From Fibrobacter sp. (GTDB lineage Bacteria > Fibrobacterota > Fibrobacteria > Fibrobacterales > Fibrobacteraceae), in contig JAKSIH010000002.1 in NCBI GenBank assembly GCA_024398935.1, positions 1 through 64,000 on the forward strand: a stretch of 64,000 nt of DNA. The letters are read 5' to 3'. The first letter of the stretch is position 1; each line of letters begins with the position of its first letter. A program made the translations under genes and the position numbers. The notes under the pieces are model-generated. The model made no database searches. It saw only the letters and a list, made by a program, of their open reading frames with translations, and had not been told where the DNA came from. Positions 6,819 through 25,967 of this stretch are shown piece by piece.

Positions 6819-6901
6819 TGCAAAAATCTCCTTCAAAATTTTTCTAAAATTTACTTTATTCATGTAACTCTTGCAACTAAGTTTTATATTTAGAGCCTCT
6901 C

Positions 6902-9184: not shown

Positions 9185-9201
9185 CACAAGACCTTCTTGC
9201 T

Positions 9202-9235
9202 GGATCCTTCGCGGCTTCGCCTCTCAGGATGACAC
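9202..9235 (-). repeat. Dispersed repeat between hemA and hemC
   Basis: On the minus strand this is a GTCATCCTGAGAGGCGAAG-type element ending in GGATCC. It is the intergenic form of the repeat that appears translated inside cobA-hemD and the AhbAB gene. Its core GGC TTC GCC can form a small hairpin. Confidence 0.65.
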
Positions 9236-9259
9236 GATGATGGTTCTGCTTGCCTGTCA

Positions 9260-10594: not shown

Positions 10595-10599
10595 GGCGC

Positions 10600-10607
10600 C
10601 AAATGTA
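10600..10607 (-). promoter_or_regulatory. Putative -10 element TACATTTG of hemA
   Basis: Matches TAnnTTTG, with 7 nt between TACATT and the ATG at 10594. It gives hemA its own promoter despite the close CotH gene upstream. Confidence 0.55.
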
Positions 10608-10627
10608 GAAAATTCATCCCGCAATTT

Positions 10628-11875
10628 TTACGGATACTGACTGCAGATCCAATCGTAACGTTTTTTCATCCACTGGACCATGGAATCTACCGCGGCGTCA
10701 TAAGACTCGTACGGTTCCTTCAGAGCCCAGTTTTCCGTATTTCCCATGACAGGCCAGCGCCTGTACTCGTTGTGGATAGCCTTCGAAATCATCCTGCGAT
10801 AAACGGGGACGCTGTCGATCAGGTCCCGAAAAACGGTCCTGTTTTCGTTCCAGTAATCCTTTGCTGCAGTCCCCACATGCGCTTTCTTAAAAATATAGCG
10901 GTACCAACGATAGTTGCGAATGTACCAGTCCTCGGCAGACCGATTTTCCTTTCGGGAGGCGTTTCCAAAGCCAAGGTCAAAATCCCACAGGGGGCCAAAA
11001 TGGATGAGGCCGCCCTTTTCCCAGGTCATGAAAGTGCTGCGGGCAAAACCGCCATCTTCATTTTTTGCAAATTCCTGCACCCAGTAATAGAGCAGAAAGT
11101 CATCCATGTCGATCCAGGAATCCGGGGAATCCCGCCACAAAATTCCACCGTTCACAAGATAATTTTCAAATTCCTTCAGGTGGTCCGTCAGCATTTTTCC
11201 GGACTCCTCCGTCATGTCCCTGGGAGACTTCACATGAAAGGTGTAGCCCAGTTCCGAAGTCACATAAGGAGAGTCCAGCTTCTTGGAATCCTCCTTTTCA
11301 AAGAGAAACGACGAATCACTTTTCGCGATGTTCACACGGTTCTTTCCCACCTTCACCGTTTCCGTAAACAGGTAGAGCCCCATGTACTTGCGATTCAGAT
11401 ACAGTTCCACAAAATGCATCTTCGGAGTGTAATCCGCCCCCAGCCATTCCGAAAGACGGAACATCATATAATTTCGCAAGTGAGTCTTGTCCCCGAAATT
11501 TGCCACCAGGGCCCAGTCCCGATTTTTAGGCATGCCAAACATTTCCACCTTGTCCCTGAATTCCAGTTTCAGGCCGTACTTGGGCATCTTCGAACTGGAA
11601 TTTCCACGACCGCGGACCGTCAGTTCATAAACCCCGGTTTCCGGAAGGGAATCCCCATAAACCTGGAGCTGCGCCGGAATTTCCGTCTCGTTGTCCCGAA
11701 TTTCCCTAAAGTCCTCCGTTTCGATGACCACACGGGGCAGGTCCCCATAAGGGTACTCCGAATCATCCATGGGCAGGTAATCCGGACTCTCTTCGGGAGA
11801 TTCCCAGAAACACCCACTCAGGAGCATCACGAGTGAGAAAAGGAGAACCGCTCTTATATTGGACAGCGCAGACAT
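10628..11875 (-). CDS. CotH-kinase domain lipoprotein
   Basis: The N terminus (SNIRAVLLFSLVMLLSGCFW) is a lipoprotein signal with lipobox LSGC, so this 415-residue protein should be membrane-anchored. An acidic spacer precedes the CotH-kinase domain: LTVRGRGNSSSKMPKYGLKL, RDWALVANFGDKTHLRNYMM, YMGLYLFTETVKVGKNRVNI and FGPLWDFDLGFGNA with the metal-binding aspartates. It is a paralog of the secreted CotH protein at 6902-8098, on the opposite strand. The pair flanks hemC-hemA. It ends 33 nt before hemA but hemA appears to have its own promoter. Substrate unknown. Confidence 0.88.
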   Translation of the reverse strand: MSALSNIRAVLLFSLVMLLSGCFWESPEESPDYLPMDDSEYPYGDLPRVVIETEDFREIRDNETEIPAQLQVYGDSLPETGVYELTVRGRGNSSSKMPKYGLKLEFRDKVEMFGMPKNRDWALVANFGDKTHLRNYMMFRLSEWLGADYTPKMHFVELYLNRKYMGLYLFTETVKVGKNRVNIAKSDSSFLFEKEDSKKLDSPYVTSELGYTFHVKSPRDMTEESGKMLTDHLKEFENYLVNGGILWRDSPDSWIDMDDFLLYYWVQEFAKNEDGGFARSTFMTWEKGGLIHFGPLWDFDLGFGNASRKENRSAEDWYIRNYRWYRYIFKKAHVGTAAKDYWNENRTVFRDLIDSVPVYRRMISKAIHNEYRRWPVMGNTENWALKEPYESYDAAVDSMVQWMKKRYDWICSQYP

Positions 11876-11946: not shown

Positions 11947-12771
11947 ATGAAAAAGATTCTGGGGACATTCTTTCTGGTGAGCGGCACCCTGGCCTGTGCC
12001 ACGGAAATTCTGCATCCAGTTCTCCCCCCTCAAACCCGGTTCTCCACGGGAGCTGCCGCCGAACTGCGAGACGACGTGTACAGCGCCGACATACAACTCT
12101 CCGCGGAATTCGCCCCCGGTAAAAATTTCAGCATCTACGCCGACGGGTCCTTCCGTTTCCTGAGCTATAGCTACGAATACTCCCGCAAAGGCTATATCCA
12201 TAATTACTGTAACCTTCATGTAAACGGTTTCAACGAGACCTACCTGGGAATAAAAATCGCCCCCTTCCACGAAGGCGCCCTAAGGCCCCTGGGTATAAAC
12301 ATCAGCTGGAGATTTCCTCCCGGCGAGGGAAGCCAGACCGAACGGTTCCACCGTCTGGGAATCGAGCCCTTCTATGCCTACGCCTTCAGCGATTTTTTAA
12401 TGCTTGGTGCGGCCTTCCGTTACAACCGCTTTCTGGAACAGGACCACTACGCTCCCGGCGACGAAATCGGCGCAAGGCTTTCCTTCTCCTGGAAATTCCG
12501 CTGGGACACCCAGACAAAAACCGGCTGGATTTTTGACGAAACCTTTTTGTGGCAGGCCCGCATAGGCGAATCGGAAAACCTGCACCTGGCAAAACCTTAC
12601 CGCAAGATGAAGGACAACTATCAGGGAATCCGGACAAAGTTTGAAGTTGCACGGTACTTCTCCCTTTTCTCAAACCAGCTTGGCTTCGGGCTGAACTACG
12701 AAATCAACCAGGGCACCCTCTTCGGTTTCGAGACCGGCCACCGCCTGGGCCTATTCATCAACATAAGATAA
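11947..12771 (+). CDS. Predicted outer-membrane beta-barrel protein, unknown function
   Basis: A signal peptide (MKKILGTFFLVSGTLACATE) precedes 255 residues rich in alternating aromatic/polar strands, for example FSIYADGSFRFLSYSYEY, LMLGAAFRYNRFLEQ and LGFGLNYEINQGTLFGFETG. This pattern suggests an outer-membrane beta barrel of about ten to twelve strands. The cysteine near the signal end (LAC|A) could form a lipobox, but the downstream barrel pattern argues for a signal-peptidase I protein. I recognise no family. It is the lone plus-strand gene between two minus-strand blocks. Confidence 0.7.
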   Translation: MKKILGTFFLVSGTLACATEILHPVLPPQTRFSTGAAAELRDDVYSADIQLSAEFAPGKNFSIYADGSFRFLSYSYEYSRKGYIHNYCNLHVNGFNETYLGIKIAPFHEGALRPLGINISWRFPPGEGSQTERFHRLGIEPFYAYAFSDFLMLGAAFRYNRFLEQDHYAPGDEIGARLSFSWKFRWDTQTKTGWIFDETFLWQARIGESENLHLAKPYRKMKDNYQGIRTKFEVARYFSLFSNQLGFGLNYEINQGTLFGFETGHRLGLFINIR

Positions 12772-12789: not shown

Positions 12790-12825
12790 AAAAAAAATCC
12801 CGTGCAGCACAGGCTTGCACAGGAT
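12790..12825 (-). terminator. Terminator of the three-module lipoprotein gene
   Basis: The stem 12797-12806 with 12816-12825 has one mismatch and is followed on the minus strand by a T run. The surrounding bases, about 12780-12880, are nearly identical to 17192-17290 after the other large lipoprotein gene. Confidence 0.85.
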
Positions 12826-12845: not shown

Positions 12846-15416
12846 CTAATTGACAGAACAGGTTCCCAGCCTTCCAATTTCGTAAATTTTAATGTTGTCG
12901 GTAATATACTTAGTAGTAGACTTGAATTTTATATGAGCAACCTTTTGGAGAACATCATCTCGATTTACAGCCTGCCCCCAACCAGGCTCTTGATTGAATC
13001 TTGACCAGTAAAAGTTTTCAACACGCGTTCCACCTGCAGCATGAGCTGCTCCTGCTATAAAGTTATTGTATTGCGTAAAGACAGATTCGTCATCCGTTAC
13101 TAGTTCTACAAGAAATCCAGCAACAGAGGATCCATAAGTGACACAGATACCACCCCAGCTGGATATGTCACCACCCGTGCCATCCCCCTTGATAGAAATG
13201 CCAAAGCCGGCATAGGGATATTCGGCGTCATTGCCGAGGGTAACGCTATAATCAATGACTTCATCCTGAGGAACAAAATTATCCGCCGTTCCTGCGATTG
13301 CGCTATTCAAGGTAACAACAGAGTTACCACCATCAGCACCATCGTCATAGGTGAACATTCTGCCTGCGCCTGCGCCGCTAAAACCAGTATAGGCGGGAGA
13401 ACCAGCGTCTCTTCGTCCACACCAAATGTCGCCGCAAGGCTTCTCTACAAATGTAGATCCATCACAGGTGCCGTAGCGGCCAATGGTAAAGATTTTGAAA
13501 TCACCACTTTCTCTGAACATATACCGAATCCGTGCAGCCGCCTTAACAACTTCGTTAATACTGACGACTGTTGATCCCCATCCTTCCCGTTCTAAGTCGT
13601 TCCACTTAATGTTTACCATTTTGGGAGATTGGGACTTGTTGAGAGTTATCCCGTAGTTATCATAACTGGTTACTGCAGGTTCATTCTCAGGGACGACTTC
13701 TAAACGGAAATCCATATCGGAGGCGTATGCCATGCAGAGGCCTTCCCAGGAGGCAATATCCCCCCCACTTTGTACATCATCAAAGATATTAAAACCAATG
13801 CCAGCATAATTAGCATCATTATCTGCGGTTGTACCGATGGAAGCCGTAGCGGCAAAACCCTTATAGGTCTTAACTAAATTTCCATAGAAATAGTCACTAT
13901 ACGCATTAAACATCTCGACATTTTTAGGAAATTCTATTTTGGAAGTTCCACCTGCAGCAGCATCATCAAAGTCATACCAATATCCACCAGAATATTCCGA
14001 AGTGCTACCCGGAATAATAACGCGTCCATCTACGTCGGTGAGTCCACACCACAGATCACCACATTTATTGTAAGAAGCTTTCATAACAGCAGATCCTTCA
14101 AGAATCGGCGTTACAATACTTGCAAGTGAATTGAAGGTTTTTGCAGGAGGATAGGGGGCATCCGTCGTGCAGGTTCCCTTTCTACCCACAGAAAGCAAGG
14201 CAAAGTCTCCTTCTTTTGAGAATTTGAAACCGACAGCAGCCACTTTTTTCAGGAACTCGTTTTGGCTAACTACTTTACCCCACGACTCCTGTTTGAACTT
14301 GGACCATTCAAGCTCAAGGACCCTAACAGTCGAGGATTTCGGTACTACGGCTGTATAGTTGTCGTAGTTCGTATAGTTTGCCTGATCTTCGGGAATCAGT
14401 TCAACGATGCCAGCAACTTCGGAATAATAGGTAAAGCAGATGCCTCCCCAGTCCGAAATGTCACCACCGGTCATCTTATCATCGACAATCGGGAACTGGA
14501 CTCCAGCAAAAGGATACATATAGGCACGTCCCATCTGGGCGTAGGCCTTAATACCACCGTACGCTTCAATCAAGGGACCATAGAAACTTCCGTACGTGTT
14601 AGTGTCCACATCATTCGGGAAAACAAGTCTAGAATTACCATTTAAATTATCATTATCGTTATATTCCTCCCAATAGCCGGAATAGTCTCCGCTTTGTCCA
14701 GGAATCATAACCTTACCTTCTACATCTTCAGGACCGCACCAAAGGTCACCGCACTTGATGGTCTTGCCCACAGAAGAACTGGACTTCACGGAGCTGCTAC
14801 TGGACCTTGCCTCAGAAGAACTGGACTTTACAGAACTGCTGGACTTAGCCTCGGAGGAGCTAGACAGAACATTCTCGGAGGAACTGGACACTTCCTCGGA
14901 AGGATGCTGGTCTGTTCCCGTAGAGCTGGAAGACTTGCCGCCCTCGACAAACTTAATACCGGCGCATCCAACGCTACGCTTCTTATTATTATACTCCACA
15001 TTCAGGTAAGGGTTGTAAACCCCCGCTGCCAGACCATTTTTTACGGCATCATTCAAGGACAAGGTCAGGAGACCCGATTCAGAATCGTCATCCCACACTA
15101 CGTCCACATCGCCAAAACTGTCTGCAAAGCCGGTTTCATCGTCCGGGTTTTCGTCAATGGAGAAATCCCCCTTACAACCGGAAACGGTCCAGCGAATTTC
15201 GCCAACACCAGAATTCATGTCATAAGCACCGGTAGCATTATTCATCCAGTCCATAGATGCAAAATCGCAGATGCACTCTAGATCTTTTTCTATCTGGGCT
15301 TCCTCAATCTTTGCAACATTGTCATCGTGCTGGTCGTCCAATTCACCAACGTAGTCAGAGCAGGCAACCAAGGCAGTTGCCGCAGAAGCCATTAAGAATA
15401 AATTAAACTTTTTCAT
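12846..15416 (-). CDS. Lipoprotein with serine-rich linker and three CGDLWCG modules
   Basis: The lipoprotein signal MKKFNLFLMASAATALVACS gives lipid-modified Cys19. A unique domain (about 30-160) and a serine-rich linker (about 163-218) lead to three repeats of a roughly 195-residue module at about 221-415, 450-650 and 661-856. Each opens with CGDLWCG (or CGDIWCG), has a mid GICxxY-type cysteine, a W..F.Q..WG-like stretch, and ends GRxGTC, suggesting two disulfides. The aromatic pattern recalls jelly-roll carbohydrate-binding domains such as CBM family 11; that is inference. It starts 8 nt after the membrane-partner gene at 15425 and is surely cotranscribed. Related proteins are at 17257 and 22644. 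Confidence 0.85.
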   Translation of the reverse strand: MKKFNLFLMASAATALVACSDYVGELDDQHDDNVAKIEEAQIEKDLECICDFASMDWMNNATGAYDMNSGVGEIRWTVSGCKGDFSIDENPDDETGFADSFGDVDVVWDDDSESGLLTLSLNDAVKNGLAAGVYNPYLNVEYNNKKRSVGCAGIKFVEGGKSSSSTGTDQHPSEEVSSSSENVLSSSSEAKSSSSVKSSSSEARSSSSSVKSSSSVGKTIKCGDLWCGPEDVEGKVMIPGQSGDYSGYWEEYNDNDNLNGNSRLVFPNDVDTNTYGSFYGPLIEAYGGIKAYAQMGRAYMYPFAGVQFPIVDDKMTGGDISDWGGICFTYYSEVAGIVELIPEDQANYTNYDNYTAVVPKSSTVRVLELEWSKFKQESWGKVVSQNEFLKKVAAVGFKFSKEGDFALLSVGRKGTCTTDAPYPPAKTFNSLASIVTPILEGSAVMKASYNKCGDLWCGLTDVDGRVIIPGSTSEYSGGYWYDFDDAAAGGTSKIEFPKNVEMFNAYSDYFYGNLVKTYKGFAATASIGTTADNDANYAGIGFNIFDDVQSGGDIASWEGLCMAYASDMDFRLEVVPENEPAVTSYDNYGITLNKSQSPKMVNIKWNDLEREGWGSTVVSINEVVKAAARIRYMFRESGDFKIFTIGRYGTCDGSTFVEKPCGDIWCGRRDAGSPAYTGFSGAGAGRMFTYDDGADGGNSVVTLNSAIAGTADNFVPQDEVIDYSVTLGNDAEYPYAGFGISIKGDGTGGDISSWGGICVTYGSSVAGFLVELVTDDESVFTQYNNFIAGAAHAAGGTRVENFYWSRFNQEPGWGQAVNRDDVLQKVAHIKFKSTTKYITDNIKIYEIGRLGTCSVN

Positions 15417-15424
15417 GTTCTACC

Positions 15425-16984
15425 TCAGAATACGAAGGAAAGTCCAACGCCAACAGCACCGACAATGGCGGCACCAATACCCACATTACGCACAGTCTGG
15501 TACTTTTTCACATTATCCTTGTGGGAAGAGTATTCTTCCTTTTCCCTGACATTTGCCAGATCGTCACCAGAAGCAACATGACTCATGTTCTTTTCGTAAT
15601 CATCCACTTCCTTCTTGGCCTTGCCGTCGAACAGGGCCGCAACCACGACACCGCCAATCAGCACTGCACCGGAAATTGCCACAGGAATAATGCGAACCAC
15701 GGGCTTTCCGCCAGTGGCGTCTTCGGCGGCCTTGCGAGCCTGAGCGTCCTTAATGGCCTGGCGTTCTTCGGCAGCCTGGCGTTCCAGTTCGTCCTTCTTG
15801 GAGGCCTCTGCTGCAACCTTAGCCTTTTCCTCGTTCTTGGCGGCTTCTTCGGCGCGGGCCAGTTCCTCGATACCCTGCTTGTAGGTAAGGGAGTCTTCAG
15901 CAGTCATGCTTTCGGATTCTTCCTGGGTAGCAGCAACTTCGTCGGGTAGCTTTTCGGAATCCCACATCCAGCGGCCGATCATCTCGGGCTTCTTCAGCTT
16001 GTTGAAAGCCTGACGGCCATTGAACGCCTCGATGACACCGCTTTCGGGAACGGTCAGGTGGGCCTTCTTGTTCTTGATGTCAAACTTCAGGTGAGAAGCC
16101 TTTCCACTTGCATCCAAAGTCTTTTCGAACATGCGGACGCCGTTCAGGTAATAGGCGCCATTCACCGGGCGGCGCATGTCCACACGCAGTCCCAGGTTCT
16201 TCTGGTCCATCATGAACTTCACGTTGGAGCCGTTCTTCTTCAGGGAGTCGTTTTTTACCTTGAGGGTCGCAATAAACATGGGGGCGAATTCGGAACCGGA
16301 CTGGCGCAGCACGATGGAGCCGCACTTTTCAATCCAGAGGTTCGCAAGACGCTGCTGCTGTTCCAGTCGAGAGGGATCGTAAGACAGCGTATAGCTATAC
16401 TCCGCATCGAAGTCCCCTTCGAAGTTAATGGGTTCCAGGTAGATATTACCACGCAGGCTCAGCAACTGGTCACGGCTAATCACGATACTGGTCAAGGCTT
16501 CGGAACAGCTGGCCAGCTGGCGAGTGCGTTCTTCCAGGGTGGTTGCCATGCGCATGGAGCCCAGTCGGACTTCACCGGTAAGTTCCATGAACTTGTTTTC
16601 GAAGGCGGGCAATTCCACCTGATAGAAGTGTCCGCAAGTGGTATCCAGCAAATCATTCAGGGAAATGGATGCGCACCGGTCGTTCATCTCCGCAATGCGG
16701 TTGGCACGCTTCATCAAGGAATCGATTTCGGGATTGGAACCACCAGCCATGGTCTGCAAGGATTTCAAGTCTTCCTGCAAGGCTCGGATTTCTTCGGGAC
16801 TCTTCACGAACACCGATATGGTAGAACCATTTTCGGAGGAAAGATTCCCCGAGGCAGGTCCAGCCTGGGGTGCAGGTGCGGGAGCGGGTGCAGGTGTCGC
16901 GGGAGCAGGCTCATTCAGAGCCGCCTGGGAAAAAGCCACAGTGGACACAAAAGCCAAGCAGCAGCAAAGTTTCTTTAGGAACAT
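15425..16984 (-). CDS. Membrane-anchored partner protein of the CGDLWCG lipoproteins (copy 1)
   Basis: A signal peptide (FLKKLCCCLAFVSTVAFSQA) and a Pro/Ala-rich stretch precede a soluble region with conserved cysteines (DRCASISLNDLLDTTCG, LASCSEAL, WIEKCGSIV). A charged coiled coil (about 370-430) follows, then two predicted membrane segments near the C terminus (IIPVAISGAVLIGGVVVAAL and NVGIGAAIVGAVGVGLSFVF). The bulk should face the periplasm. GAGG lies upstream of the ATG. A paralog at 23470-25206 is likewise followed within about 10 nt by a CGDLWCG lipoprotein, so the two proteins probably work together. I recognise no described family. Confidence 0.82.
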   Translation of the reverse strand: MFLKKLCCCLAFVSTVAFSQAALNEPAPATPAPAPAPAPQAGPASGNLSSENGSTISVFVKSPEEIRALQEDLKSLQTMAGGSNPEIDSLMKRANRIAEMNDRCASISLNDLLDTTCGHFYQVELPAFENKFMELTGEVRLGSMRMATTLEERTRQLASCSEALTSIVISRDQLLSLRGNIYLEPINFEGDFDAEYSYTLSYDPSRLEQQQRLANLWIEKCGSIVLRQSGSEFAPMFIATLKVKNDSLKKNGSNVKFMMDQKNLGLRVDMRRPVNGAYYLNGVRMFEKTLDASGKASHLKFDIKNKKAHLTVPESGVIEAFNGRQAFNKLKKPEMIGRWMWDSEKLPDEVAATQEESESMTAEDSLTYKQGIEELARAEEAAKNEEKAKVAAEASKKDELERQAAEERQAIKDAQARKAAEDATGGKPVVRIIPVAISGAVLIGGVVVAALFDGKAKKEVDDYEKNMSHVASGDDLANVREKEEYSSHKDNVKKYQTVRNVGIGAAIVGAVGVGLSFVF

Positions 16985-17083
16985 AAAATCCTCATTAAAT
17001 TCTCACAAAAAATACATTTTTTGCTTCGACCCGCAGGAGGACTCCGCTAAAAAAATAACCCATTATGGCAGGTCCTCCTACAG

Positions 17084-17111
17084 AAAAAGTCCCCTCGAAA
17101 ACCGAGGGGAC
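17084..17111 (-). terminator. Second terminator between two lipoprotein genes
   Basis: A perfect 9-bp stem (17089-17097 with 17103-17111) is followed on the minus strand by five T. It lies about 90 nt beyond the terminator at 17200-17236 and may be the older end of the transcription unit before the tail duplication. Confidence 0.8.
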
Positions 17112-17199
17112 CTTAGCTTCATCTTCCGGAGTAAGAACCAATTCAAAGTCAGCGGACGTCAGGAATCCACAACTATCAGGGAATCAGGAGATTGACATT

Positions 17200-17236
17200 C
17201 AAAAAAAATCCCGTGCAGCACAGGCTTGCACGGGAT
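17200..17236 (-). terminator. Terminator of the four-module lipoprotein gene
   Basis: A perfect 10-bp stem (17208-17217 with 17227-17236) is followed on the minus strand by eight T. It is a near copy of 12790-12825; here the mismatch is repaired. Confidence 0.88.
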
Positions 17237-17256
17237 TATCTAGAGTTTTTCAGAGG

Positions 17257-20133
17257 CTAATTGACAGAACAGGTTCCCGCCCTTCCTATTTGGTAGATCT
17301 TGAAGTCGCCACTAGTGGTGGATTTAAATCTTACTTGGTCAATCTTTCTAAGGACGTCATCCATACTTACAGTTAAACCCCAGCCTGAGTCCTGCCTAAA
17401 TTTAGTGGTCCAAGGATAGTTTACAACACTCTTAGTTGTAGCTTTCGGAACAGAAGCTTTAAAGTTGTTGTATTGAGTAAAGGTACTTTCATCATCTGTC
17501 ACCAGTTCTATTTCAAATGAAGTAGAAGCTTCATAGGTGACGCAAATGCCATACCAGTCGTGAAGATCCCCACCTGTGCCGTCCCCCTTGATAGAAAAAC
17601 CTATGCCGGCAAAGGGAAATTCTGAAGCTAGACCGAGAGCTACGTTATAGTCAATGACTTCATCCTGAGGAACAAAATTATCCGCCGTTCCTGCAATTGC
17701 GCTATTCAAGGTAACAACAGAGTTACCATCAACATCACCATCGTCATAGGTGTACATTCTGCCAGCGCCGGAGTTGCTAAACCCTGTATAGGCAGGGGAA
17801 CCGGCGTCAACTCTTCCACACCAAATGTCGCTGCAAGGTTTAAAACTAGAGCCATCGCAGGTGCCGTAGCGGCCAATGGTAAAGATTTTGAAATCACCAC
17901 TTTTTCTGAACATATACTGAATCCGTGCAGCCGCCTTAACAACTTCGTTAATACTGACGACAGTTGATCCCCATCCTTCCCGTTCTAAGTCGTTCCACTT
18001 AATGTTTACCATTTTGGGAGATTGGGACTTGTTGAGAGTTATCCCGTAGTTATCATAACTGGTTACTGCCGGTTCATTCTCAGGGATGACTGCTAAACGG
18101 AAATCCATATCGGAGGCGTATGCCATACAGAGGCCTTTCCAGTAGGCAATATCCTCCCCACTACTTTCTACATCATCAACGATATTAAAACCGATGCCAG
18201 CGTAATTAGCGTTATTTGAAGCGTTTTTACCGATGGATGCCGTTGCGGTAAAGCCCTTATAGGTGCTAATTAAATTTCCAAAGAAACGGACATCATACTC
18301 ATCAGTCATATTGACATTTTTGGGAAATTCCAATTTGGACGTTCCGCCTTCAACAGCATCATCAAAGTCATACCAATATCCAGATAATTCCGAAGTGGTA
18401 AACGGAATATTAACACGGCCTTTAACATCCGTTTTTCCACACCACAAATCACCGCAGGTAGCGTAGGTAGAATTCATAAGAGCAGATCCTTCAGGAATCG
18501 GCGTTACAATACTTGCAAGTGAATTGAAGGTTTTTGCAGGAGGATAGGGGGCATCCGTCGTGCAGGTTCCCTTTCTACCCACAGAAAGCAAGGCAAAGTC
18601 ACCGTCTTTTGAGAATCTGAAACCGACAGCAGCCACTTTTTTCAAAGCAGCTTCGCGACTTACGGCATTACCCCAGCCCGATTCCTGTTTGAACCTGGAC
18701 CATTCAAAGTCAGCAACGGTTACCTGAGCAGCTTTCGGAACATCAACTTTGTAATTATTGTATCCCGTATAATTTTTTTCGTCTTCAGAAATCAGTTCAA
18801 TTTGGAGTGAATTTGTAGAATAATAGGTAAGGCAGATACCTTCCCAGTCAGAAATGTCTCCCCCGGTCTTTTTGTTATCTACAATCGGAAACTGGACTCC
18901 AGCAAAAGGATACATATAGGCACGTCCCATCTGGGCGTAGGCCTTAATACCACCGTACGCTTCAATCAAGGGACCATAGAAATTTCCGTACATGTTAGTG
19001 TCCACATCCTTCGGGAAAACAAGTCTAGAATTACCATTTAAATCATCATTATCGTTATATTCCTCCCAATAGCCGGAAAAGTCTCCACTTTGTCCAGGAA
19101 TCATAACCCTCCCTTCTGCATCTTCAGGACCGCACCAGAGGTCACCGCATACGGAAGGTTCTTCGTGAATGACCTGGTTGGAAATGGAATTGTAAGCCTT
19201 CTTGGGGATATCCAGGGTACCCCCACAAGTTCCATAGCGACCCACCGTAAACAGGGCGAAATCTCCACCAGGTCGATCAAACCTAAAGCGGATGGAAGCG
19301 ACCTGCTTCAGGGCCTTTTCAATGTCAAGGGACTTGCCCCAACCGGTATTCTGCTTGAACCTGGTCCAAGGAAGGTCAATCACGTTCAACTTGGAAGCCT
19401 TGGGAACACTGGCTATGTGATTATTGTACTGGGTCGTGGTTTCTTCGTTTTCGGGAGCGAGTTCCACACTGAATCCCGCACCGGAATAGTAAGCAAGGCA
19501 AAGGCCTTCCCAGTCAGAAATATCGGCACCCTTCTTGGATTCGCCCACGATATCAAAAGCGACACCGGTGTAAGCGTAATTATACTTGTAACCGATTTCG
19601 GCATAGGCCTTGAGAGCGCTGTACTCCTTGGCTACGGCACCATAAATGTTCTGATCGGACCCCACGGTAACATCATTAGGGAAGAACAGTTTGGAATTGC
19701 CCTTCAGTTCCGGCGTGTTGTCATTATATTCGTACCAGTAGCCGGAAGTCTTATCTTCCTGGCCTTCGATCAGCACACGACCTTCGTGACCGGAGGCCTT
19801 GTCATTTCCGCACCAGAGGTCGCCGCAGCCGTTCTTTACTTCGGAGGAGCTGGATTCATCCTTGGAATCGCTAGATTCTGCGTCTTCAGAAGAGCTGGAC
19901 TCATCCTTGGAATCGCTAGATTCTGCGTCTTCAGAAGAGCCGGACTCATCCTTTTCGGACGAACTGGACTCAATCTCGTCACCCGGTTCCTCACTGGAAT
20001 CGGAAGATTCCGGATCGTCAACAATATCTACGGGATTTGAAGGATCCTCGTTGCCGCCATTCGTCGCATCGCCGCAACCGAACAGCATGGAAGCAACCAG
20101 AGGCGCTGCCAGGAGTAGGTATTTCTTGTTCAT
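17257..20133 (-). CDS. Lipoprotein with acidic serine linker and four CGDLWCG modules
   Basis: The start at 20133 gives a clean lipoprotein signal (NKKYLLLAAPLVASMLFGCG, Cys20); GAGAGA lies upstream. An acidic Ser/Asp/Glu linker (about 25-95) includes a 45-bp DNA repeat in two copies. Four modules follow at about 101-301, 328-522, 558-757 and 766-958. The first three open with CGDLWCG and the fourth with CSDIWCG; all end GRxGTC. Modules 2-4 closely match modules 1-3 of the protein at 12846, in places at the DNA level, indicating duplication or gene conversion. Unlike the other two lipoproteins it has no membrane-partner gene directly upstream; the AhbAB gene lies there instead. Confidence 0.84.
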   Translation of the reverse strand: MNKKYLLLAAPLVASMLFGCGDATNGGNEDPSNPVDIVDDPESSDSSEEPGDEIESSSSEKDESGSSEDAESSDSKDESSSSEDAESSDSKDESSSSEVKNGCGDLWCGNDKASGHEGRVLIEGQEDKTSGYWYEYNDNTPELKGNSKLFFPNDVTVGSDQNIYGAVAKEYSALKAYAEIGYKYNYAYTGVAFDIVGESKKGADISDWEGLCLAYYSGAGFSVELAPENEETTTQYNNHIASVPKASKLNVIDLPWTRFKQNTGWGKSLDIEKALKQVASIRFRFDRPGGDFALFTVGRYGTCGGTLDIPKKAYNSISNQVIHEEPSVCGDLWCGPEDAEGRVMIPGQSGDFSGYWEEYNDNDDLNGNSRLVFPKDVDTNMYGNFYGPLIEAYGGIKAYAQMGRAYMYPFAGVQFPIVDNKKTGGDISDWEGICLTYYSTNSLQIELISEDEKNYTGYNNYKVDVPKAAQVTVADFEWSRFKQESGWGNAVSREAALKKVAAVGFRFSKDGDFALLSVGRKGTCTTDAPYPPAKTFNSLASIVTPIPEGSALMNSTYATCGDLWCGKTDVKGRVNIPFTTSELSGYWYDFDDAVEGGTSKLEFPKNVNMTDEYDVRFFGNLISTYKGFTATASIGKNASNNANYAGIGFNIVDDVESSGEDIAYWKGLCMAYASDMDFRLAVIPENEPAVTSYDNYGITLNKSQSPKMVNIKWNDLEREGWGSTVVSINEVVKAAARIQYMFRKSGDFKIFTIGRYGTCDGSSFKPCSDIWCGRVDAGSPAYTGFSNSGAGRMYTYDDGDVDGNSVVTLNSAIAGTADNFVPQDEVIDYNVALGLASEFPFAGIGFSIKGDGTGGDLHDWYGICVTYEASTSFEIELVTDDESTFTQYNNFKASVPKATTKSVVNYPWTTKFRQDSGWGLTVSMDDVLRKIDQVRFKSTTSGDFKIYQIGRAGTCSVN
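19840..19950 (-). repeat. 45-bp tandem repeat in a serine-rich linker
   Basis: Two near-perfect 45-bp units encode SSSSEDAESSDSKDE-like sequence in the linker of the four-module lipoprotein. Copy-number change would alter linker length in frame. Confidence 0.75.
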
Positions 20134-20256
20134 AGTATCTCTCGGAAAAACTAAAATAAACTTACGTAAAAGATATGAAAATTTCATATTTCTGTAAACG
20201 GGACCAGCGAATACAACTTTCCAACATGGAAAAGAGTTCTTTCAAGGCCAGTAAAA

Positions 20257-21288
20257 CTAAACCTCGAAGCGGAAACTGGTTTTCTTCAATTCCCTTTCAG
20301 AACGGAGAACCGCATATTCCGGATTTTCCAGTTTTTTTACCAGCGACTCTATTTTTGCGCTTAAATCCTCGGGGGAATTCCCATGGACCATGGCATAGAC
20401 ATTGTAGGGGAAAGGCCCAAAGGCATCCCGTTCGTAACAGTGGGAAACAAAAGGTTCCGCGGCAAGGAGTGCCCCGGCCTGGTCAACGCAAAGGGTGCCC
20501 GCTGAAAAAGGTTCGGAACCGGGGATTACAAAGCAGACCATGGCATTTTCGGAGAAGCCGGCCTGCTGGTGGCGAAGAACCGCCCCAAAGCGACGCATGC
20601 GCTTTGTGGCAAGATCCGCCTGGATACCTGCAATAAGATCTTCGGTAAAGGGCGTCAGGGAATGGGACAAGTCCCCACTCAGCATACGAATGCGGTCCCG
20701 GTCCGAAGCTTTCAAGACCGGAGCCTCACGGCTAGATTCTTCGCGTTGCTCAGAATGACACTTGGTGGCCACTCGGCGTTGCTCGGGGACCTTTGTGGCC
20801 TCGGGGACCCTAGGGTGTCTACGGGTCATTACCGTATTGATCTTGAACATCTTTTTGGCATTCAGGATATGGGTATCGCACAAGGCTGTACGCTGTTCCA
20901 GGCCGTGAACCACTTCCTGGATTTCCTGTTCAGAATGTCCGATGACCGTGAACCACACATTGTAACGGTGGCTGCGCACGTAGTTGTGGGTAATGGCGGG
21001 AATCTCATTCACCGCTGCCGCAAACTGTTCTATGGGCGACTCTCCCCCATCTTCGGCAGACTCCGGCACAATGCCGCAGCAGAGCCGGGAAGTATACCCC
21101 AGCTTCTTGGAATCGTAAACGCCGCCAATGCGCCGGATGACACCCGAGGCGCGCAAGTTTTCTACAGCATCAAAGACCTGCTGCTCAGTAATGCCGCCAA
21201 GCTGTTCAGCAATAGCAGCATAGGGGCGTTCCACAACAGGGAAACCGTCCTGAACGATATCAAGAATTCGCTGTTCTAAATCAGTCAT
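20257..21288 (-). CDS. Siroheme decarboxylase, AhbA-AhbB-like fusion
   Basis: Two Lrp/AsnC-like siroheme decarboxylase units sit in one 343-residue chain. The first (about 1-165) has the helix-turn-helix region, VIRRIGGVYDSKKLGYTSR and THNYVRSHRYNVWFTVIG. The second (about 200-343) has MRRFGAVLRHQQAGFSENAM and FVSHCYER, PYNVYAMVHG; its N-terminal helix-turn-helix looks shortened. AhbA and AhbB normally form a heterodimer that converts siroheme to 12,18-didecarboxysiroheme. The linker (about 165-195) is repeat-derived (KCHSEQREESSRE). AhbC is upstream across a heptamer-repeat spacer. NirDLGH proteins of heme d1 synthesis are the alternative, but no other heme d1 genes are seen. Confidence 0.88.
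   Translation of the reverse strand: MTDLEQRILDIVQDGFPVVERPYAAIAEQLGGITEQQVFDAVENLRASGVIRRIGGVYDSKKLGYTSRLCCGIVPESAEDGGESPIEQFAAAVNEIPAITHNYVRSHRYNVWFTVIGHSEQEIQEVVHGLEQRTALCDTHILNAKKMFKINTVMTRRHPRVPEATKVPEQRRVATKCHSEQREESSREAPVLKASDRDRIRMLSGDLSHSLTPFTEDLIAGIQADLATKRMRRFGAVLRHQQAGFSENAMVCFVIPGSEPFSAGTLCVDQAGALLAAEPFVSHCYERDAFGPFPYNVYAMVHGNSPEDLSAKIESLVKKLENPEYAVLRSERELKKTSFRFEV
20731..20762 (-). repeat. Dispersed repeat insert in the AhbAB linker
   Basis: The minus strand reads as the GTCATTCTGAGCAACGCGAAG-type element, translated CHSEQREESS. Adjacent sequence (20770-20812) holds two GGTCCCCGAG-like units translated as VPEATKVPEQRR. Confidence 0.7.
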
Positions 21289-21293
21289 GACAA

Positions 21294-21396
21294 TTTAATT
21301 GATGATTGAAAATTGAGAATTGACGATTATTAATAATCGCAGCTCCGCTGCCTAGTTTTATAATTATCAATCATCCATCATCAATCATTCATTAAT
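21294..21396. repeat. Heptamer-period repeat island between ahbC and ahbAB
   Basis: Seven-nucleotide steps run ATTGATG, ATTGAAA, ATTGAGA, ATTGACG, then TAATAATCGC and a 5-3-5 hairpin (GCAGC TCC GCTGC, 21339-21351), then CAATCAT, CCATCAT, CAATCAT, TCATTAA. The right arm includes the last codons and stop of ahbC. Same architecture as 2091-2208. Confidence 0.8.
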
Positions 21397-22557
21397 TTCT
21401 TCGTCGGTCAGGTAGCAGGCCGGGTCCATTTCCCAGAAGTCGCCCGTCACAGCCTCGGCGCGGGTACGGAAGTTGCCGTTGCAAAGGTTCAGGAAGGCGC
21501 ACTTGGGGCAGCGTCCCTTCAGCAGGGGCTTGCGGTCCTTGAGACCAGCCATGATCGGGTTGGAAACGTCAGTCCAGATGTCGCCGAACTTGCGTTCACG
21601 AACGTTACCCAGGGTAATGTACTGGGTGAACTGGTCGGGATGAACATTGCCAATGCTATCGATGTTACCGAAGGCCATGCCACTGCGGTTTCCGCCATTG
21701 CTCTGGATCAATTCCAGAATTTTCTTGGCGCGTTCAGGATCTTCACGTTTCATGCGCTGGTACAGGTACACGGCGTCGGCGTGGTTATCCACCGTCAGGA
21801 TTTCCTTGTTCAGGCCACGCTTCTTGAAGTCCAGAACGCGGTCGATAATCAGGTCCATGACCTGGCGGCTTTCTTCGTGAGAAAGATCGTGGTCCACAAT
21901 GCCACTGCCGCGGCCGCTGTACACCAAATGGTAGAAGCAGGCGCGGTCGATGTTTTCGGACTCGATAAGGTCGAAAATGGAGTTCAAGTCCCGATAGTTG
22001 TCCTTGGTAATGGTAAAGCGGAGTCCCACCTTCTGGCCGGTTGCAACGCAGTTGCGGATACCGCGGATAGCCAGCTTGTAGGCACCTTCCTTACCGCGGA
22101 ACTTGTCGTGAGTCTCTTCGTTACCGTCCAGGCTAATGCCCACGTAGCCAACGCCCATGGCCTTCAGCTTTTCTGCCACTTCGGGAGTAATGCAGGTGCC
22201 GTTGGTAGAAATCGTCGGGCGGATACCCTTGCTAGCCGCATAGTTCGCCAGCTCAAAGAAGTCGGGGCGCAGCAGAGGCTCGCCACCGCTGAACAGGATC
22301 ACCGGAACCTTGAATTCAGCCAGCTGGTCAATCAAGGCCAAGCCTTCTTCGTGAGTCAACTCGTTCTGGTACTTGATGGCCTCGGAGCGGGCGTAGCAAT
22401 GTACGCACTTCAGGTTACAGGTCTTGGTGCAGTTCCACACCACCACCGGGCCGCGACCCTCTGAAACGCCGTTCTTAGCCTCGTGAGCCTTGGGAGTGTA
22501 ACGAAGTTGGTCTCCGTAATTCGGAGCATCCATCAAAAGCTTGGTAATACTGATCAT
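21385..22557 (-). CDS. ahbC: AhbC-type radical SAM 12,18-didecarboxysiroheme deacetylase
   Basis: The 390-residue protein has the radical SAM motif CNLKCVHC within VWNCTKTCNLKCVHCYARS, the SAM-binding LFSGGEPLLRPDF, and a C-terminal cysteine-rich cluster region (CPKCAFLNLCNGN ... DPACYL). Together with the N terminus ISITKLL this matches AhbC/NirJ. AhbC removes two acetate side chains from 12,18-didecarboxysiroheme to give iron-coproporphyrin III. The neighbouring decarboxylase gene supports the heme rather than heme d1 branch. The putative promoter TATCTTTG (22591-22598) gives a leader of under 30 nt. A 97-nt repeat spacer separates it from AhbAB. Confidence 0.9.
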   Translation of the reverse strand: MISITKLLMDAPNYGDQLRYTPKAHEAKNGVSEGRGPVVVWNCTKTCNLKCVHCYARSEAIKYQNELTHEEGLALIDQLAEFKVPVILFSGGEPLLRPDFFELANYAASKGIRPTISTNGTCITPEVAEKLKAMGVGYVGISLDGNEETHDKFRGKEGAYKLAIRGIRNCVATGQKVGLRFTITKDNYRDLNSIFDLIESENIDRACFYHLVYSGRGSGIVDHDLSHEESRQVMDLIIDRVLDFKKRGLNKEILTVDNHADAVYLYQRMKREDPERAKKILELIQSNGGNRSGMAFGNIDSIGNVHPDQFTQYITLGNVRERKFGDIWTDVSNPIMAGLKDRKPLLKGRCPKCAFLNLCNGNFRTRAEAVTGDFWEMDPACYLTDEEINE

Positions 22558-22590
22558 CTATAACTCGTTTTTCTTCTTACTTGAACGGGG

Positions 22591-22598
22591 CAAAGATA
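22591..22598 (-). promoter_or_regulatory. Putative -10 element TATCTTTG of ahbC
   Basis: A full match to TAnnTTTG. It lies inside the T tract of the terminator at 22600-22623 that ends the upstream operon. Confidence 0.55.
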
Positions 22599-22599
22599 A

Positions 22600-22623
22600 A
22601 AAAAAGAGTCCGCAAGGACTCTT
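22600..22623 (-). terminator. Terminator of lipoprotein cassette 2
   Basis: A perfect 8-bp stem (22604-22611 with 22616-22623) with GCAA loop is followed on the minus strand by a T run. It has T-rich flanks on both strands. Confidence 0.85.
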
Positions 22624-22643
22624 CTTTTTTATACAACAGACAC

Positions 22644-23459
22644 CTATTTACAGGTTCCGTAGCGACCGATGGAATAGATGTGGAAATCGCCCGGCGTCTG
22701 GAATTTCAACCTGATATTCGCGACCTGGGAAAGGACATCAGAAAGAGCAACCTTATTTCCCCACCCCGTATCCTGCTTGAATTTAGCCCAGGGGAGTTCG
22801 GCTACGGATTTTGAAGTAGCCTTTGCTACATTGACCTTATAATCATTATATTCAACAAACATTTCGTCTTGGAGCCCCAACTCCACTACGAAGCTAGTCG
22901 TAGAGGAATACTGCAAACAAATTCCATTCCAATCCGTAATGTCTGCCGGATCTTGTTTCGAATTCACCAGATCAAAGCCTATGCCGACATAGGGGAAATC
23001 AACAGAAGTGCCCGTAACCACAGAAGCAGTACCTTTTATTCCGCCATACACTTCTGCCATAGGTCCAAAGAAATTTCCATACTCATCTTCTTTCACATCA
23101 GAAGGCCATACAAACTTCGAGTCGCCGCCTTCGAGTTTATCATTGTAATCATACCAATATCCTCCCGTTTCCTCCATAAAGGGAAGCATAGAGGCATCAA
23201 TACGGCCTTCAGTGTCCGTTGCACCGCACCAGAGGTCCCCGCAGCCCGATGCATCATGACTACCACTATTCCCACCACTCGGTAAAGAATTCACACCGCC
23301 TTGCAAAGAAGCGATGTAATCGTTGGACTCCTGTTCCCATTGGTCCAGACCAGGTTCTACATCCTCTTTATAGACATCCGTAATCTGACCTTCGTAATCG
23401 GTACAGGCAAGCAACATCAAGGAGGCAGAAGCAATAGCAAACAAATTAATCTTTCTCAT
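22644..23459 (-). CDS. Lipoprotein with a single CGDLWCG module
   Basis: The signal MRKINLFAIASASLMLLACT places lipid-modified Cys19. A short acidic and glycine-rich linker leads to one module from about residue 73 to the end: GCGDLWCG, GGYWYDYNDKLEGGDSKF, YVGIGFDLV, NGICLQYSSTTSFVVELG, LPWAKFKQDTGWGNKV and the terminal IGRYGTCK. The layout of four cysteines and the WxxFxQxxGWG stretch match the modules of the two larger lipoproteins. It starts 10 nt after its membrane-partner gene (23470-25206). As the minimal form it is the best representative of the module for structure prediction. Confidence 0.85.
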   Translation of the reverse strand: MRKINLFAIASASLMLLACTDYEGQITDVYKEDVEPGLDQWEQESNDYIASLQGGVNSLPSGGNSGSHDASGCGDLWCGATDTEGRIDASMLPFMEETGGYWYDYNDKLEGGDSKFVWPSDVKEDEYGNFFGPMAEVYGGIKGTASVVTGTSVDFPYVGIGFDLVNSKQDPADITDWNGICLQYSSTTSFVVELGLQDEMFVEYNDYKVNVAKATSKSVAELPWAKFKQDTGWGNKVALSDVLSQVANIRLKFQTPGDFHIYSIGRYGTCK

Positions 23460-23469
23460 ATAAACCCCA

Positions 23470-25206
23470 CTAGAAGACGATAAAGAAGCCTACACCAACA
23501 AGACCTGCAGCCCCGAGACCGATACCCACATTGCGAAGGGTCTGATGTCTTTCAACCAATTTCTTGCGATCTTCATAGTATTCCTTCGAACTGGATTCCT
23601 TTTTCGTAAAAGGATTGCCAGAATACCCTTTGTCCACCCAAGAATACCCATTGTTCACCCAATGTTGGTCCATAGAGAGATGGAAACCTATACCATCCTT
23701 GTATTCCTGAACAACATCCTTCGCCTTCTTGTCGTACCAGAAGGCCATGACACCGCCACCAATGGCTAGGGCACCAGAAATGGCAACCGGCAACCAACGG
23801 AGGAAGGTGGACTTGCCGCTAGAAGAACTTGCTTCGGCAGCAGCGGCAGCGGCGGCCTCGTCGGCCATAGCCTGTTCTTCCAGCTGCTTACGGAGTTTTT
23901 CCGCTGCGGCAATGGAATCCTGCTTGTCTGCCATCGCCTGTTCAAGCTCAGCCTGCCCCTGCTTGTAGGCCAGGGAGTCTTCCTTGGTCATGGTTTCGGA
24001 TTCATCCGTAGTATTGGCAACAGCCACCTGTTCCGGAAGTTTTTCGCTATCCCAGACCCAGCGACCAATCATTTCAGCCTGTTTCAGCTTCTTGAAAACC
24101 TGACGACCCTTGAAGGACTTCAACTCCATATTCTTAGGAGTATTCAAGGAAGCCTTTTTCTCCTTAATCTGGAAGTGCAGCAAGGAATTGTCGGTACTTG
24201 CGTCCAGGGTATTTTCAAACATGCGGATACCGTTCATGTAGTAGGCACCGTGCATGGGGCGACGCATATCCACTCGCAGGGAGAGGCCCTTCTTGCTCAT
24301 CATGAACTTCACATTGGAGCCGGCCTTCTTCAGGGAGTCGTTCTTCATCTTCAGGGTTGCAACGAACATGGGAGCGAATTCTTCCCCGGACTGGCGTAGC
24401 ACGATAGACCCGCACTTTTCAATCCACAGGTCGGCAAGGCGCTTCTGCTGGTCCAGACGGGTCTGGTCATAGGTCAGGGAGAACCTATATTCCGCGTCGA
24501 AATCGCCAGCGAAGTTAATGGGTTCCAGGAAAACATTACCATGGAGGCGAAGCATCTGTTCACGGCCCATCACAATACTGGTAAGCGCTTCGGAGCAGCT
24601 TGCCAACTGGCGGGTGCGTTCTTCCAGGGTAGTAGCCATGCGCATGGAGCCCAGTCGGATTTCACCGGTAAGTTCCATGAATTCGTTTTCGAAGGCAGGC
24701 AATTCAACTTCGTAGAAGCGTCCGCAAGTGGAGTCCAGCAGATCGTTCAGGGAGATGGAAGCGCATCGGTCGTTCATCTCGGCAATGCGGTTGGCTCGCT
24801 TCATCAAGGCTTCGATTTCCGGATTGGAACCGCCGGCCATGACCTGCAAGTTTCTCAAGTCTTCCTGCAAGGCCTTGATTTCGGCAGGATTCTTCACGAA
24901 CACAGAAACCGTAGAGGACTTGTCCCCCGGTTCATTCAGGGAAGTAGGAGCCTTTGCAGTTTCTATAACCGGAGTCTCTCGGCTAGGCTCGGGCGCCTTG
25001 GCAGGCTCGGCGGCCTTCGCTGTTTCCAAGGCAGGAGCCTCTTGACTGGGCGCGGGTACCTGAATAGGCTCGGGTGCCTTGGCGGGTTCAACCTCCTGGC
25101 TGGTCGCGGGGACCTGAGTAGGCTCGGGACCCTGGGTAGGCTCGGGGGTCTGGGCAAATGTAAATGCCGCAAAAAACAGAGACAGCAAAGATAAACGCTT
25201 AAACAT
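23470..25206 (-). CDS. Membrane-anchored partner protein of the CGDLWCG lipoproteins (copy 2)
   Basis: This 578-residue paralog of the protein at 15425 shares the whole central region, including DRCASISLNDLLDSTCG, LASCSEAL, IEKCGSIVLRQSG and GRWVWDSEKLPEQV, a coiled coil, and two C-terminal membrane segments (WLPVAISGALAIGGGVMAF and VGIGLGAAGLVGVGFFIVF). Its N-terminal Pro/Glu/Ala-rich stretch (about 20-90) is longer and repetitive (PEPTQ, PEPSRE, ETAKA). GGAG lies 11 nt before the ATG. The single-module lipoprotein follows at once. The loop between the membrane segments differs from copy 1 and contains NNGYSWVDKGYSGN. Confidence 0.82.
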   Translation of the reverse strand: MFKRLSLLSLFFAAFTFAQTPEPTQGPEPTQVPATSQEVEPAKAPEPIQVPAPSQEAPALETAKAAEPAKAPEPSRETPVIETAKAPTSLNEPGDKSSTVSVFVKNPAEIKALQEDLRNLQVMAGGSNPEIEALMKRANRIAEMNDRCASISLNDLLDSTCGRFYEVELPAFENEFMELTGEIRLGSMRMATTLEERTRQLASCSEALTSIVMGREQMLRLHGNVFLEPINFAGDFDAEYRFSLTYDQTRLDQQKRLADLWIEKCGSIVLRQSGEEFAPMFVATLKMKNDSLKKAGSNVKFMMSKKGLSLRVDMRRPMHGAYYMNGIRMFENTLDASTDNSLLHFQIKEKKASLNTPKNMELKSFKGRQVFKKLKQAEMIGRWVWDSEKLPEQVAVANTTDESETMTKEDSLAYKQGQAELEQAMADKQDSIAAAEKLRKQLEEQAMADEAAAAAAAEASSSSGKSTFLRWLPVAISGALAIGGGVMAFWYDKKAKDVVQEYKDGIGFHLSMDQHWVNNGYSWVDKGYSGNPFTKKESSSKEYYEDRKKLVERHQTLRNVGIGLGAAGLVGVGFFIVF

Positions 25207-25364: not shown

Positions 25365-25967
25365 TTAAAGCTTTACAGAATCCTTGGAAACAAACTTCTT
25401 GATCTTCTTGTCGCCAATCCAGATCTTCTTGTGGCTCTGGAGGTCGGTGAGTTCAAGGTCAATCTGGTAGAAGATCACAGACTTGCCACCTTCCTGGTCG
25501 ATGATGGTGTTGATGGAGCCGGTAAGCATCCAGTCGGCGCCAGTTTCCATGCCCAGTTCCTTGGTGGTTTCGTCGGTAGCGTTACCACGCTGGTTCATGA
25601 CTTCTTCGCGAAGGGCGTCCCGTTCCTTGCCGGAAGCGACAAAGTCCAGGGAGCCATCGTTAATGATGACGCGTTCCATGTCCTTGATAAAGGTTTCGAC
25701 GCTGATGTGTTCGTGGCTCTTGTTGCGGACCTTGCCGATAACCACAGTGGGAGTCTTGCCCATTTCGGCAGCCATCTTCTTGATCTTGCCGCTGTTAAGG
25801 CAGTCCGTAATCATTTCCTCGGCAACCAGACGGGAGTCGGTGTCGTTCCACTTGCCGGAAAGGTCGGTGGTGGAATTTTCGTCAATACGCTTTACGCCGC
25901 TGCTGCTACCGCAGGCAACCATGCAGAGGCTAAGGCCAAGAGCCAGAAGGCAGAAAAGTTTACGCAT
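25365..25967 (-). CDS. LpoB-like penicillin-binding protein activator lipoprotein
   Basis: The lipoprotein signal (RKLFCLLALGLSLCMVACGS) is followed by a domain matching the LpoB-like family: RIDENSTTDLSGKWNDTDSR, LVAEEMITDCL, VVIGKVRNKSHEHI, VETFIKDMERVIINDG and WMLTGSINTIIDQ. LpoB is an outer-membrane lipoprotein that stimulates penicillin-binding protein 1B. AAGGAG precedes the ATG and TATCTTTA (25999-26006) is a likely -10 element. A terminator follows, so it is probably a single-gene unit. Whether it activates a PBP here is inference from family. Confidence 0.85.
   Translation of the reverse strand: MRKLFCLLALGLSLCMVACGSSSGVKRIDENSTTDLSGKWNDTDSRLVAEEMITDCLNSGKIKKMAAEMGKTPTVVIGKVRNKSHEHISVETFIKDMERVIINDGSLDFVASGKERDALREEVMNQRGNATDETTKELGMETGADWMLTGSINTIIDQEGGKSVIFYQIDLELTDLQSHKKIWIGDKKIKKFVSKDSVKL

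Follow-up and report, generated by a model that had tools for sequence, protein, structure and literature searches.

The stretch analysed here, referred to as the window, comprises 64,000 nucleotides of a Fibrobacter sp. genome (contig JAKSIH010000002.1, our C12; the assembly, G000, has 2.9 Mb in 76 contigs and is 83% complete). Our subject is the region 12846-25206, in which two genes for membrane-associated partner proteins, ptA and ptB, are each followed by a lipoprotein gene, lpA3 and lpB1 respectively. On the minus strand the genes run in the order LpoB-type lipoprotein, ptB, lpB1, radical-SAM gene, ahbAB fusion, lpC4, ptA, lpA3, CotH gene, hemA and hemC (Table 1). An earlier reading made from the letters alone (the sequence-only reading) had described the two partners as paralogues, and they proved to be 63% identical, both with an N-terminal signal peptide, a Cys-containing core, a predicted helical or coiled region and two C-terminal hydrophobic segments. 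It was also right in placing a lipoprotein gene within about 10 nt of each partner, a third lipoprotein with four modules (lpC4) in the same region, and eight modules in all (1+3+4) with four Cys each; these modules are 189-201 aa long and have 25 invariant columns, including the four Cys. The CGDLWCG opening ascribed to them is found in most, two starting with CSDIWCG and CGDIWCG. The ahbAB fusion and the NirJ1/AhbC-like radical-SAM gene of this region had gone unmentioned.

The candidate system of partner plus lipoprotein that this reading put forward is supported, and it is far broader than claimed. In partner loci sampled by the partner match alone, a lipoprotein gene followed within 25 nt in 75 of 80 cases (70 by an automatic rule and five by eye), while among other close same-strand pairs of the same loci the next gene encoded a lipoprotein in 50 of 164 (odds ratio 34, Fisher 9e-23; since the rows compared here and below are related, the p-values overstate their independence). 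The five unpaired exceptions were three divergent partners and two partners of a second type, described below.

Moreover the lipoproteins of these pairs share a short box after the lipidated Cys. Tyr at position +4 was present in 67 of 71 partner-linked lipoproteins versus 6 of 161 other lipoproteins, and the strict pattern C-[TSAG]-[DN]-Y in 58/71 versus 3/161 (6e-38), and of the three exceptions two are genes beside tail matches missed by the gene caller and one is a second lipoprotein in tandem after a partner pair. The box subtype tracks the partner type. Partners with a C-terminal membrane hairpin, as in the window, go with C-[TS]-D-Y-x-x-E-[FYI]-x-D-x-Y, in which the Tyr is kept in 39 of 39 distinct examples and the Asp in 37 of 39. 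Type II partners, whose hairpin is replaced by about 150 residues of beta-amphipathic sequence, go with C-[TS]-[LV]-Y-D-N-Y-D-I-D-L-M. In the window the two partner-linked lipoproteins start with CSDY (lpA3) and CTDY (lpB1), and the partnerless lpC4 with CGDATNGG. None of the 71 partner-linked lipoproteins had Asp at +2, which fits sorting to the outer membrane by the +2 rule, a rule that may not hold in Fibrobacter.

Table 1 Features of the window in and around the two cassettes.
Feature	Position	Strand	Remarks
LpoB-type lipoprotein	25365-25967	-	PF13036, 1.1e-37; directly upstream of ptB
ptB, partner, 578 aa	23470-25206	-	Signal peptide, Pro/Ala-rich linker, core domain, helical region, C-terminal membrane hairpin
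ptB core domain, aa 98-388	24043-24915	-	Four Cys invariant among 59 homologues; pLDDT mostly >90 for aa 190-370
ptB C-terminal hydrophobic hairpin	23473-23793	-	Terminal Phe
lpB1, lipoprotein, one module	22644-23459	-	Box CTDYEGQITDVY; starts 10 nt past the ptB stop
lpB1 CTDY box	23394-23405	-	Lipidated Cys +1 to +4
Module lpB1_m1	22650-23243	-	CGDLWCG...GRYGTC; predicted CBM11-like jelly roll; AlphaFold pLDDT 93.9
Radical-SAM gene	21385-22557	-	NirJ1 above its cut-off, AhbC-like below
ahbAB fusion	20257-21288	-	
lpC4, four-module lipoprotein	17257-20187	-	No upstream partner, no box (CGDATNGG)
Module lpC4_m1	19225-19827	-	
Module lpC4_m2	18562-19149	-	79% aa identity to lpA3_m1
Module lpC4_m3	17857-18456	-	83% to lpA3_m2
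Module lpC4_m4	17269-17835	-	Opening CSDIWCG; 68% to lpA3_m3
ptA, second partner, 519 aa	15425-16984	-	ptB paralogue
ptA core domain, approx. aa 54-343	15956-16825	-	
ptA C-terminal hydrophobic hairpin	15428-15691	-	Terminal Phe
lpA3, lipoprotein, three modules	12846-15416	-	Box CSDYVGELDDQH; Ser-rich linker; starts 8 nt past the ptA stop
lpA3 CSDY box	15351-15362	-	
Module lpA3_m1	14169-14753	-	
Module lpA3_m2	13464-14063	-	
Module lpA3_m3	12858-13436	-	Opening CGDIWCG
Divergent gene, probable outer-membrane protein	11947-12771		Same place in relatives with and without cassettes
CotH-kinase lipoprotein	10628-11875		Same place in relatives with and without cassettes

What the lipoprotein carries behind the box (its payload) varies. 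Pfam assigned 36 of 58 downstream proteins to Fib_succ_major, 12 to Lcl_C, and one each to GH5 cellulase, Carb_bind, cadherin and CIA30. With local profiles the followers of the 58 partners placed on a tree comprised 16 with modules of the window type only, 10 with these and FISUMP domains, 24 with FISUMP domains only, 6 with other domains and 2 with none. The module lipoprotein therefore does not define the system, as had been assumed, since the partner is constant and the payload is not; the sequence-only reading had held that a partner occurring mostly without a module lipoprotein would tell against it, and we find that a lipoprotein is nearly always present but this module is not. On the partner tree the payload labels cluster, needing 16 changes where shuffled labels need 29.5, and the window's partner clade (97/100 support) has the module in all 14 members; payload classes thus follow partner clades, yet they have been exchanged several times. 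The GH5 cellulase (2.2e-42) is part of a boxed, partner-linked lipoprotein (L094:6997-8673, G071:C4).

FISUMP (Fib_succ_major; TIGR02145, PF09603), the payload of those 36 cassettes, is extremely expanded in these bacteria, with 90 matches in G000, 94 in G055 and 137 in G053. Ordinary Fibrobacter FISUMP lipoproteins mostly start with CGDD, CSDD or CGGD and are without the box; of 32 FISUMP genes in the regions sampled from a near-complete genome, none had the box or a partner. We found no description of a dedicated adjacent partner or a matched N-terminal box for FISUMP or for the variable-protein families of diversity-generating retroelements (DGRs).

The payload of the window belongs to a known fold. 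A profile of the modules recovered all eight from the genome at E <= 2e-72, far beyond chance. The Pfam family CIA30 (PF08547) matched both multi-module lipoproteins above its cut-off (lpC4, 2e-7; lpA3, 1e-5) but not lpB1; the Pfam profile of carbohydrate-binding module (CBM) family 11 gave no match among the window modules, and the module profile gave no usable match among PDB sequences. The proposal of a jelly-roll, CBM11-like module was borne out by structure prediction: AlphaFold, run with 39 module sequences, returned a confident model of the lpB1 module (pLDDT 93.9, pTM 0.91), whose four best Foldseek matches in the PDB were all CBM11 of Clostridium thermocellum (6r3m, 1v0a, 6r31 and 2lro; E 8.7e-7 to 1e-5, TM about 0.5-0.58, 13-15% identity), followed by NDUFAF1/CIA30 and then, among others, CBM30. 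With a family 11 CBM as the closest fold (8.7e-7), there is good support at the level of fold for the CBM11 guess, and by these models the window modules are new members of a known fold. They share with CBM11/CIA30, as in C. thermocellum Lic26A-Cel5E, the galactose-binding-like jelly roll, and differ from it in their low identity, in lacking a match to the CBM11 Pfam profile, in their four conserved Cys and in their tandem arrangement on lipoproteins. Elsewhere in the genome the profile matched a secreted protein encoded on C14 (E 1.5e-63), which has a weak match to a secretion tail, and, less strongly, GH5 cellulases and a further secretion-tail protein; Fibrobacter cellulases are known to contain CBM11 (PMC6851124, PMC3079729). 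Given the modelled fold and this cellulase context, the window modules most likely bind plant polysaccharide of the beta-glucan type.

Pairing, matched box, payload exchange and, in some cassettes, hypermutation of the FISUMP payload (see below) are what we observed. We lean, without great confidence, to the explanation that the two window pairs belong to a multicopy family of two-gene cassettes, mostly of Fibrobacter, for modular ligand binding at the cell surface, in which the partner docks or anchors the boxed lipoprotein. The first gene would encode a Sec-exported, membrane-anchored partner, and the second a lipoprotein in which a partner-matched box follows the lipidated Cys and a flexible, Ser-rich linker leads on to a binding domain that can be exchanged. 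The box would be C-T/S-D-Y for hairpin-anchored partners and CxxYDNYDIDLM for partners with a beta-barrel-like C-terminus; the partner would bind it and hold or escort the lipoprotein, thereby exposing the payload on the outer surface. That payload would be CBM11-like jelly rolls in the window and, in other cassettes, the C-type-lectin-like FISUMP domain for other ligands. Because the partner is constant, the box matched, the payload changeable, the genes adjacent and some payloads hypermutated, we infer that the partner recognises the box and that the payload faces outwards. The roles suggested in the sequence-only reading, plant-polysaccharide binding for the modules and anchoring or export of the lipoprotein for the partner, are plausible.

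The hypermutation is due to DGRs. G000 has two reverse-transcriptase (RT) genes, on contigs C67 and C36, each belonging to a DGR that targets FISUMP domains. The C67 locus comprises a type II partner with its boxed FISUMP lipoprotein and another FISUMP lipoprotein, followed by an accessory gene, the template repeat (TR) and the RT (L215:6057-14008, corresponding to C67:36056-44007; variable repeat (VR) in a FISUMP lipoprotein at 8366-8546, TR 7129-7309, RT 6057-7196), and 21 of the 22 TR-VR mismatches lie at template A (1.5e-10). The DGR on C36 (L216:7102-10398) has one template and two VRs in tandem FISUMP domains, with 32/32 and 34/36 mismatches at template A. Four more cassettes, three in G007 and one in G041, have an RT downstream on the same strand and the VR in FISUMP, with 20/20, 27/27, 28/28 and 27/28 at template A; in one of them (L217:6850-11923, G007:C5; 27/28) the target is a CSDY-boxed FISUMP lipoprotein 8 nt behind a hairpin partner. 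Altogether five cassettes in three genomes adjoin a DGR, versus about 0.3 expected by a rough estimate from 27 RT hits. Several other RTs have FISUMP or phage-type targets away from cassettes, and in other Fibrobacter genomes three DGRs (L221, L223, L225) lie near phage-like tail genes, with 16/16, 19/20 and 17/17 mismatches at template A. FISUMP is a known DGR target family (PMC4159848), and in Legionella a lipoprotein varied by a DGR is known to be displayed at the surface (a paper cited in that article).

These DGRs are also what would be expected if the cassettes served the recognition of cells or phages and not of fibre, as variable receptors for self and non-self, epibionts, phages or other bacteria, with the CBM11-like module as one of several binder scaffolds. 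DGR targets are commonly ligand binders of the C-type-lectin fold (PMC6328139), one diversified lipoprotein stands directly behind its partner, and the FISUMP family is massively expanded. However, the window payload is CBM11-like and its contig has no RT, so that DGR action on the window modules is rejected; moreover a GH5 cellulase occurs as payload, and an RT match was obtained in only 18 of 80 Fibrobacter genomes. We regard this account as unlikely, though the best placed of the rivals considered here, and keep to modular ligand binding by a docked lipoprotein.

The partner itself resembles nothing known. The four Cys of the ptB core (C148, C161, C204, C265) are invariant among 59 homologues, and the AlphaFold model combines helices with a beta region. 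ptB had no match in Pfam, and the partner sequence no usable match in the PDB. All 66 hairpin partners end in Phe, 44 of them having the window-type core and 22 being tail-only proteins. Endings such as GLSFVF and GVTFLF resemble outer-membrane beta-signals or the ends of barrel strands, yet their hydropathy indicates a helix. Several of these features weigh against a docking partner for surface lipoproteins. Its fold had no match in the PDB at E<=0.001 (the top hits, MHC-II at TM 0.05, are meaningless), and a core without a known fold does not constrain the function. To judge from its sequence, the hairpin resembles an alpha-helical anchor of the inner membrane, and a partner held there would be separated by the periplasm from a lipoprotein at the surface. 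Finally, since a sizeable minority of the genus has neither this partner nor the second type, the cassettes are dispensable.

A periplasmic domain joined through a helical region to a membrane hairpin could also belong to an envelope-spanning sensor, in which the lipoprotein binds its ligand outside, and the box relays this state to the partner, which transmits it through the periplasm as far as the inner membrane. Receptor families would be expected to combine a constant partner with a variable sensor domain; however, the partners have no cytoplasmic signalling domain, no kinase or regulator lies consistently beside the cassettes, and type II partners swap the hairpin for a beta-rich, probably outer-membrane, domain. 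A sensor therefore seems to us quite improbable, and docking or anchoring of the lipoprotein is still preferred. The type II C-terminus, which had no match among PDB sequences, is probably an outer-membrane beta-barrel by its amphipathicity and last-strand pattern.

The second partner type combines another N-terminal domain ('VAVLET...LTNVLREQAV') with the common C-terminal hairpin and often PEGA; most of these proteins precede boxed lipoproteins. The VAVLET domain has a by-eye likeness to CsgG/LpoB-type domains and no Pfam match. Several second-type partners are thus similar to PEGA-domain proteins with a C-terminal membrane hairpin, whereas the window type is without PEGA and its core without a family. 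In one natural fusion (L197:4186-5886), which lacks the hairpin, a VAVLET-type N-terminal domain and PEGA are joined directly to FISUMP.

Among 151 Fibrobacterota genomes the window-type family is found mostly in Fibrobacter: a profile from the two partners matched 49 genomes and one from the 59 homologues 58, with many copies per genome and with some matches covering the hairpin tail only, while the VAVLET family had matches in 77. A scan of the genomes of 84,980 species, which works on short conserved peptides and could miss distant relatives, returned solely Fibrobacter-labelled loci, except for one 4.6-kb contig binned as Treponema sp. UBA3870 (L120, DGGQ01000035.1), which is probably a mis-binned piece of Fibrobacter.

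In the window the cassettes are inserted within a block of siroheme-type heme genes (8126-10624 and 20257-22557). Five other genomes have related cassettes in this neighbourhood of hem genes (L057, L058, L063, L065, L066), once 1 nt before hemA, and on such grounds they might serve tetrapyrrole or iron metabolism, in keeping with their position among ahbC, ahbAB, hemA and hemC. However, the block is present without a cassette in four genomes (G013, G021, G035, G055), the cassettes fill three different gaps of it (LpoB|ahbC, ahbAB|omp and CotH|hemA), and other partner clades have other conserved neighbours at loci unrelated to it. Since the block is intact elsewhere without cassettes, their position does not imply a heme role; a function read from synteny was rejected, and this largely refuted alternative has next to no probability left. 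The cassette is not a heme gene but a discrete unit of two genes that these sites may have or lack.

The LpoB-type gene directly upstream of ptB, together with the PEGA domains of some hairpin partners and the CsgG/LpoB likeness of the second type, might point to a factor for envelope or peptidoglycan maintenance whose payload is periplasmic. However, LpoB and ahbC adjoin in other genomes without any cassette, so the LpoB neighbour belongs to the old locus, the payloads are carbohydrate-binding-like and in one case a cellulase, and DGR hypermutation fits external ligands. This explanation appears very unlikely, and surface ligand binding through a docked lipoprotein continues to be our choice.

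Among the closest known systems are the SusC/SusD-like pairs of Bacteroidota, in which a membrane partner and a lipoprotein that binds glycans are encoded side by side, the pairs are paralogous and numerous in a genome and the payloads are diversified. The cassettes share this organisation but their partner is not a TonB-dependent barrel, with no SusC Pfam match in the window or among the 59 homologues, and their lipoproteins have no SusD Pfam match, the payloads being CIA30/CBM11-like, Fib_succ_major, GH5 or Carb_bind. The box in turn recalls the lipoprotein export signal of Bacteroidota, a short acidic signal right after the lipidated Cys (K-(D/E)2 or Q-A-(D/E)2; PMC5080379), but C-T/S-D-Y-x-x-E fits neither form, has a conserved Tyr and is tied to a partner gene. 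Our searches of open-licence full texts turned up no description of a pair of this kind, and there is a real chance that the partner mechanism itself is new. More tentatively, and with the odds against it, the cassettes may form a lipoprotein display apparatus of Fibrobacter's own, in which partners of a new fold would recognise a C-x-x-Y box and either deliver the cognate lipoproteins to the surface or hold them there, a general platform for CBMs, cellulases and hypermutated lectin domains. If so, it would provide an adjustable repertoire of adhesion or recognition. Fibrobacter is a leading rumen fibre degrader that has neither a cellulosome nor a classical Sus system, and how it recognises plant material and attaches to it has long been a puzzle, for which the cassettes offer a concrete, testable handle (a defined partner, a box of 4-12 residues and interchangeable binding domains). 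Through them the very large and functionally obscure FISUMP family also gains a link to a partner gene, and in some strains a link to a hypermutation device.

Finally, the partnerless lpC4, whose listed start is probably 18 codons too early, is related to lpA3: the two have 82% DNA identity over 1.9 kb and three modules in the same order, with unrelated N-termini, from which we conclude that these three modules are common to both by duplication. A scan for promoters and terminators was overall at chance level. NCBIfam matches to FosA, TolA and others were far below their cut-offs and were set aside. An identical terminator-like stem (CCTGTGCTGCACGGG followed by a T run) lies 3' of both lpA3 (12799-12813) and lpC4 (17210-17224), within the duplication.

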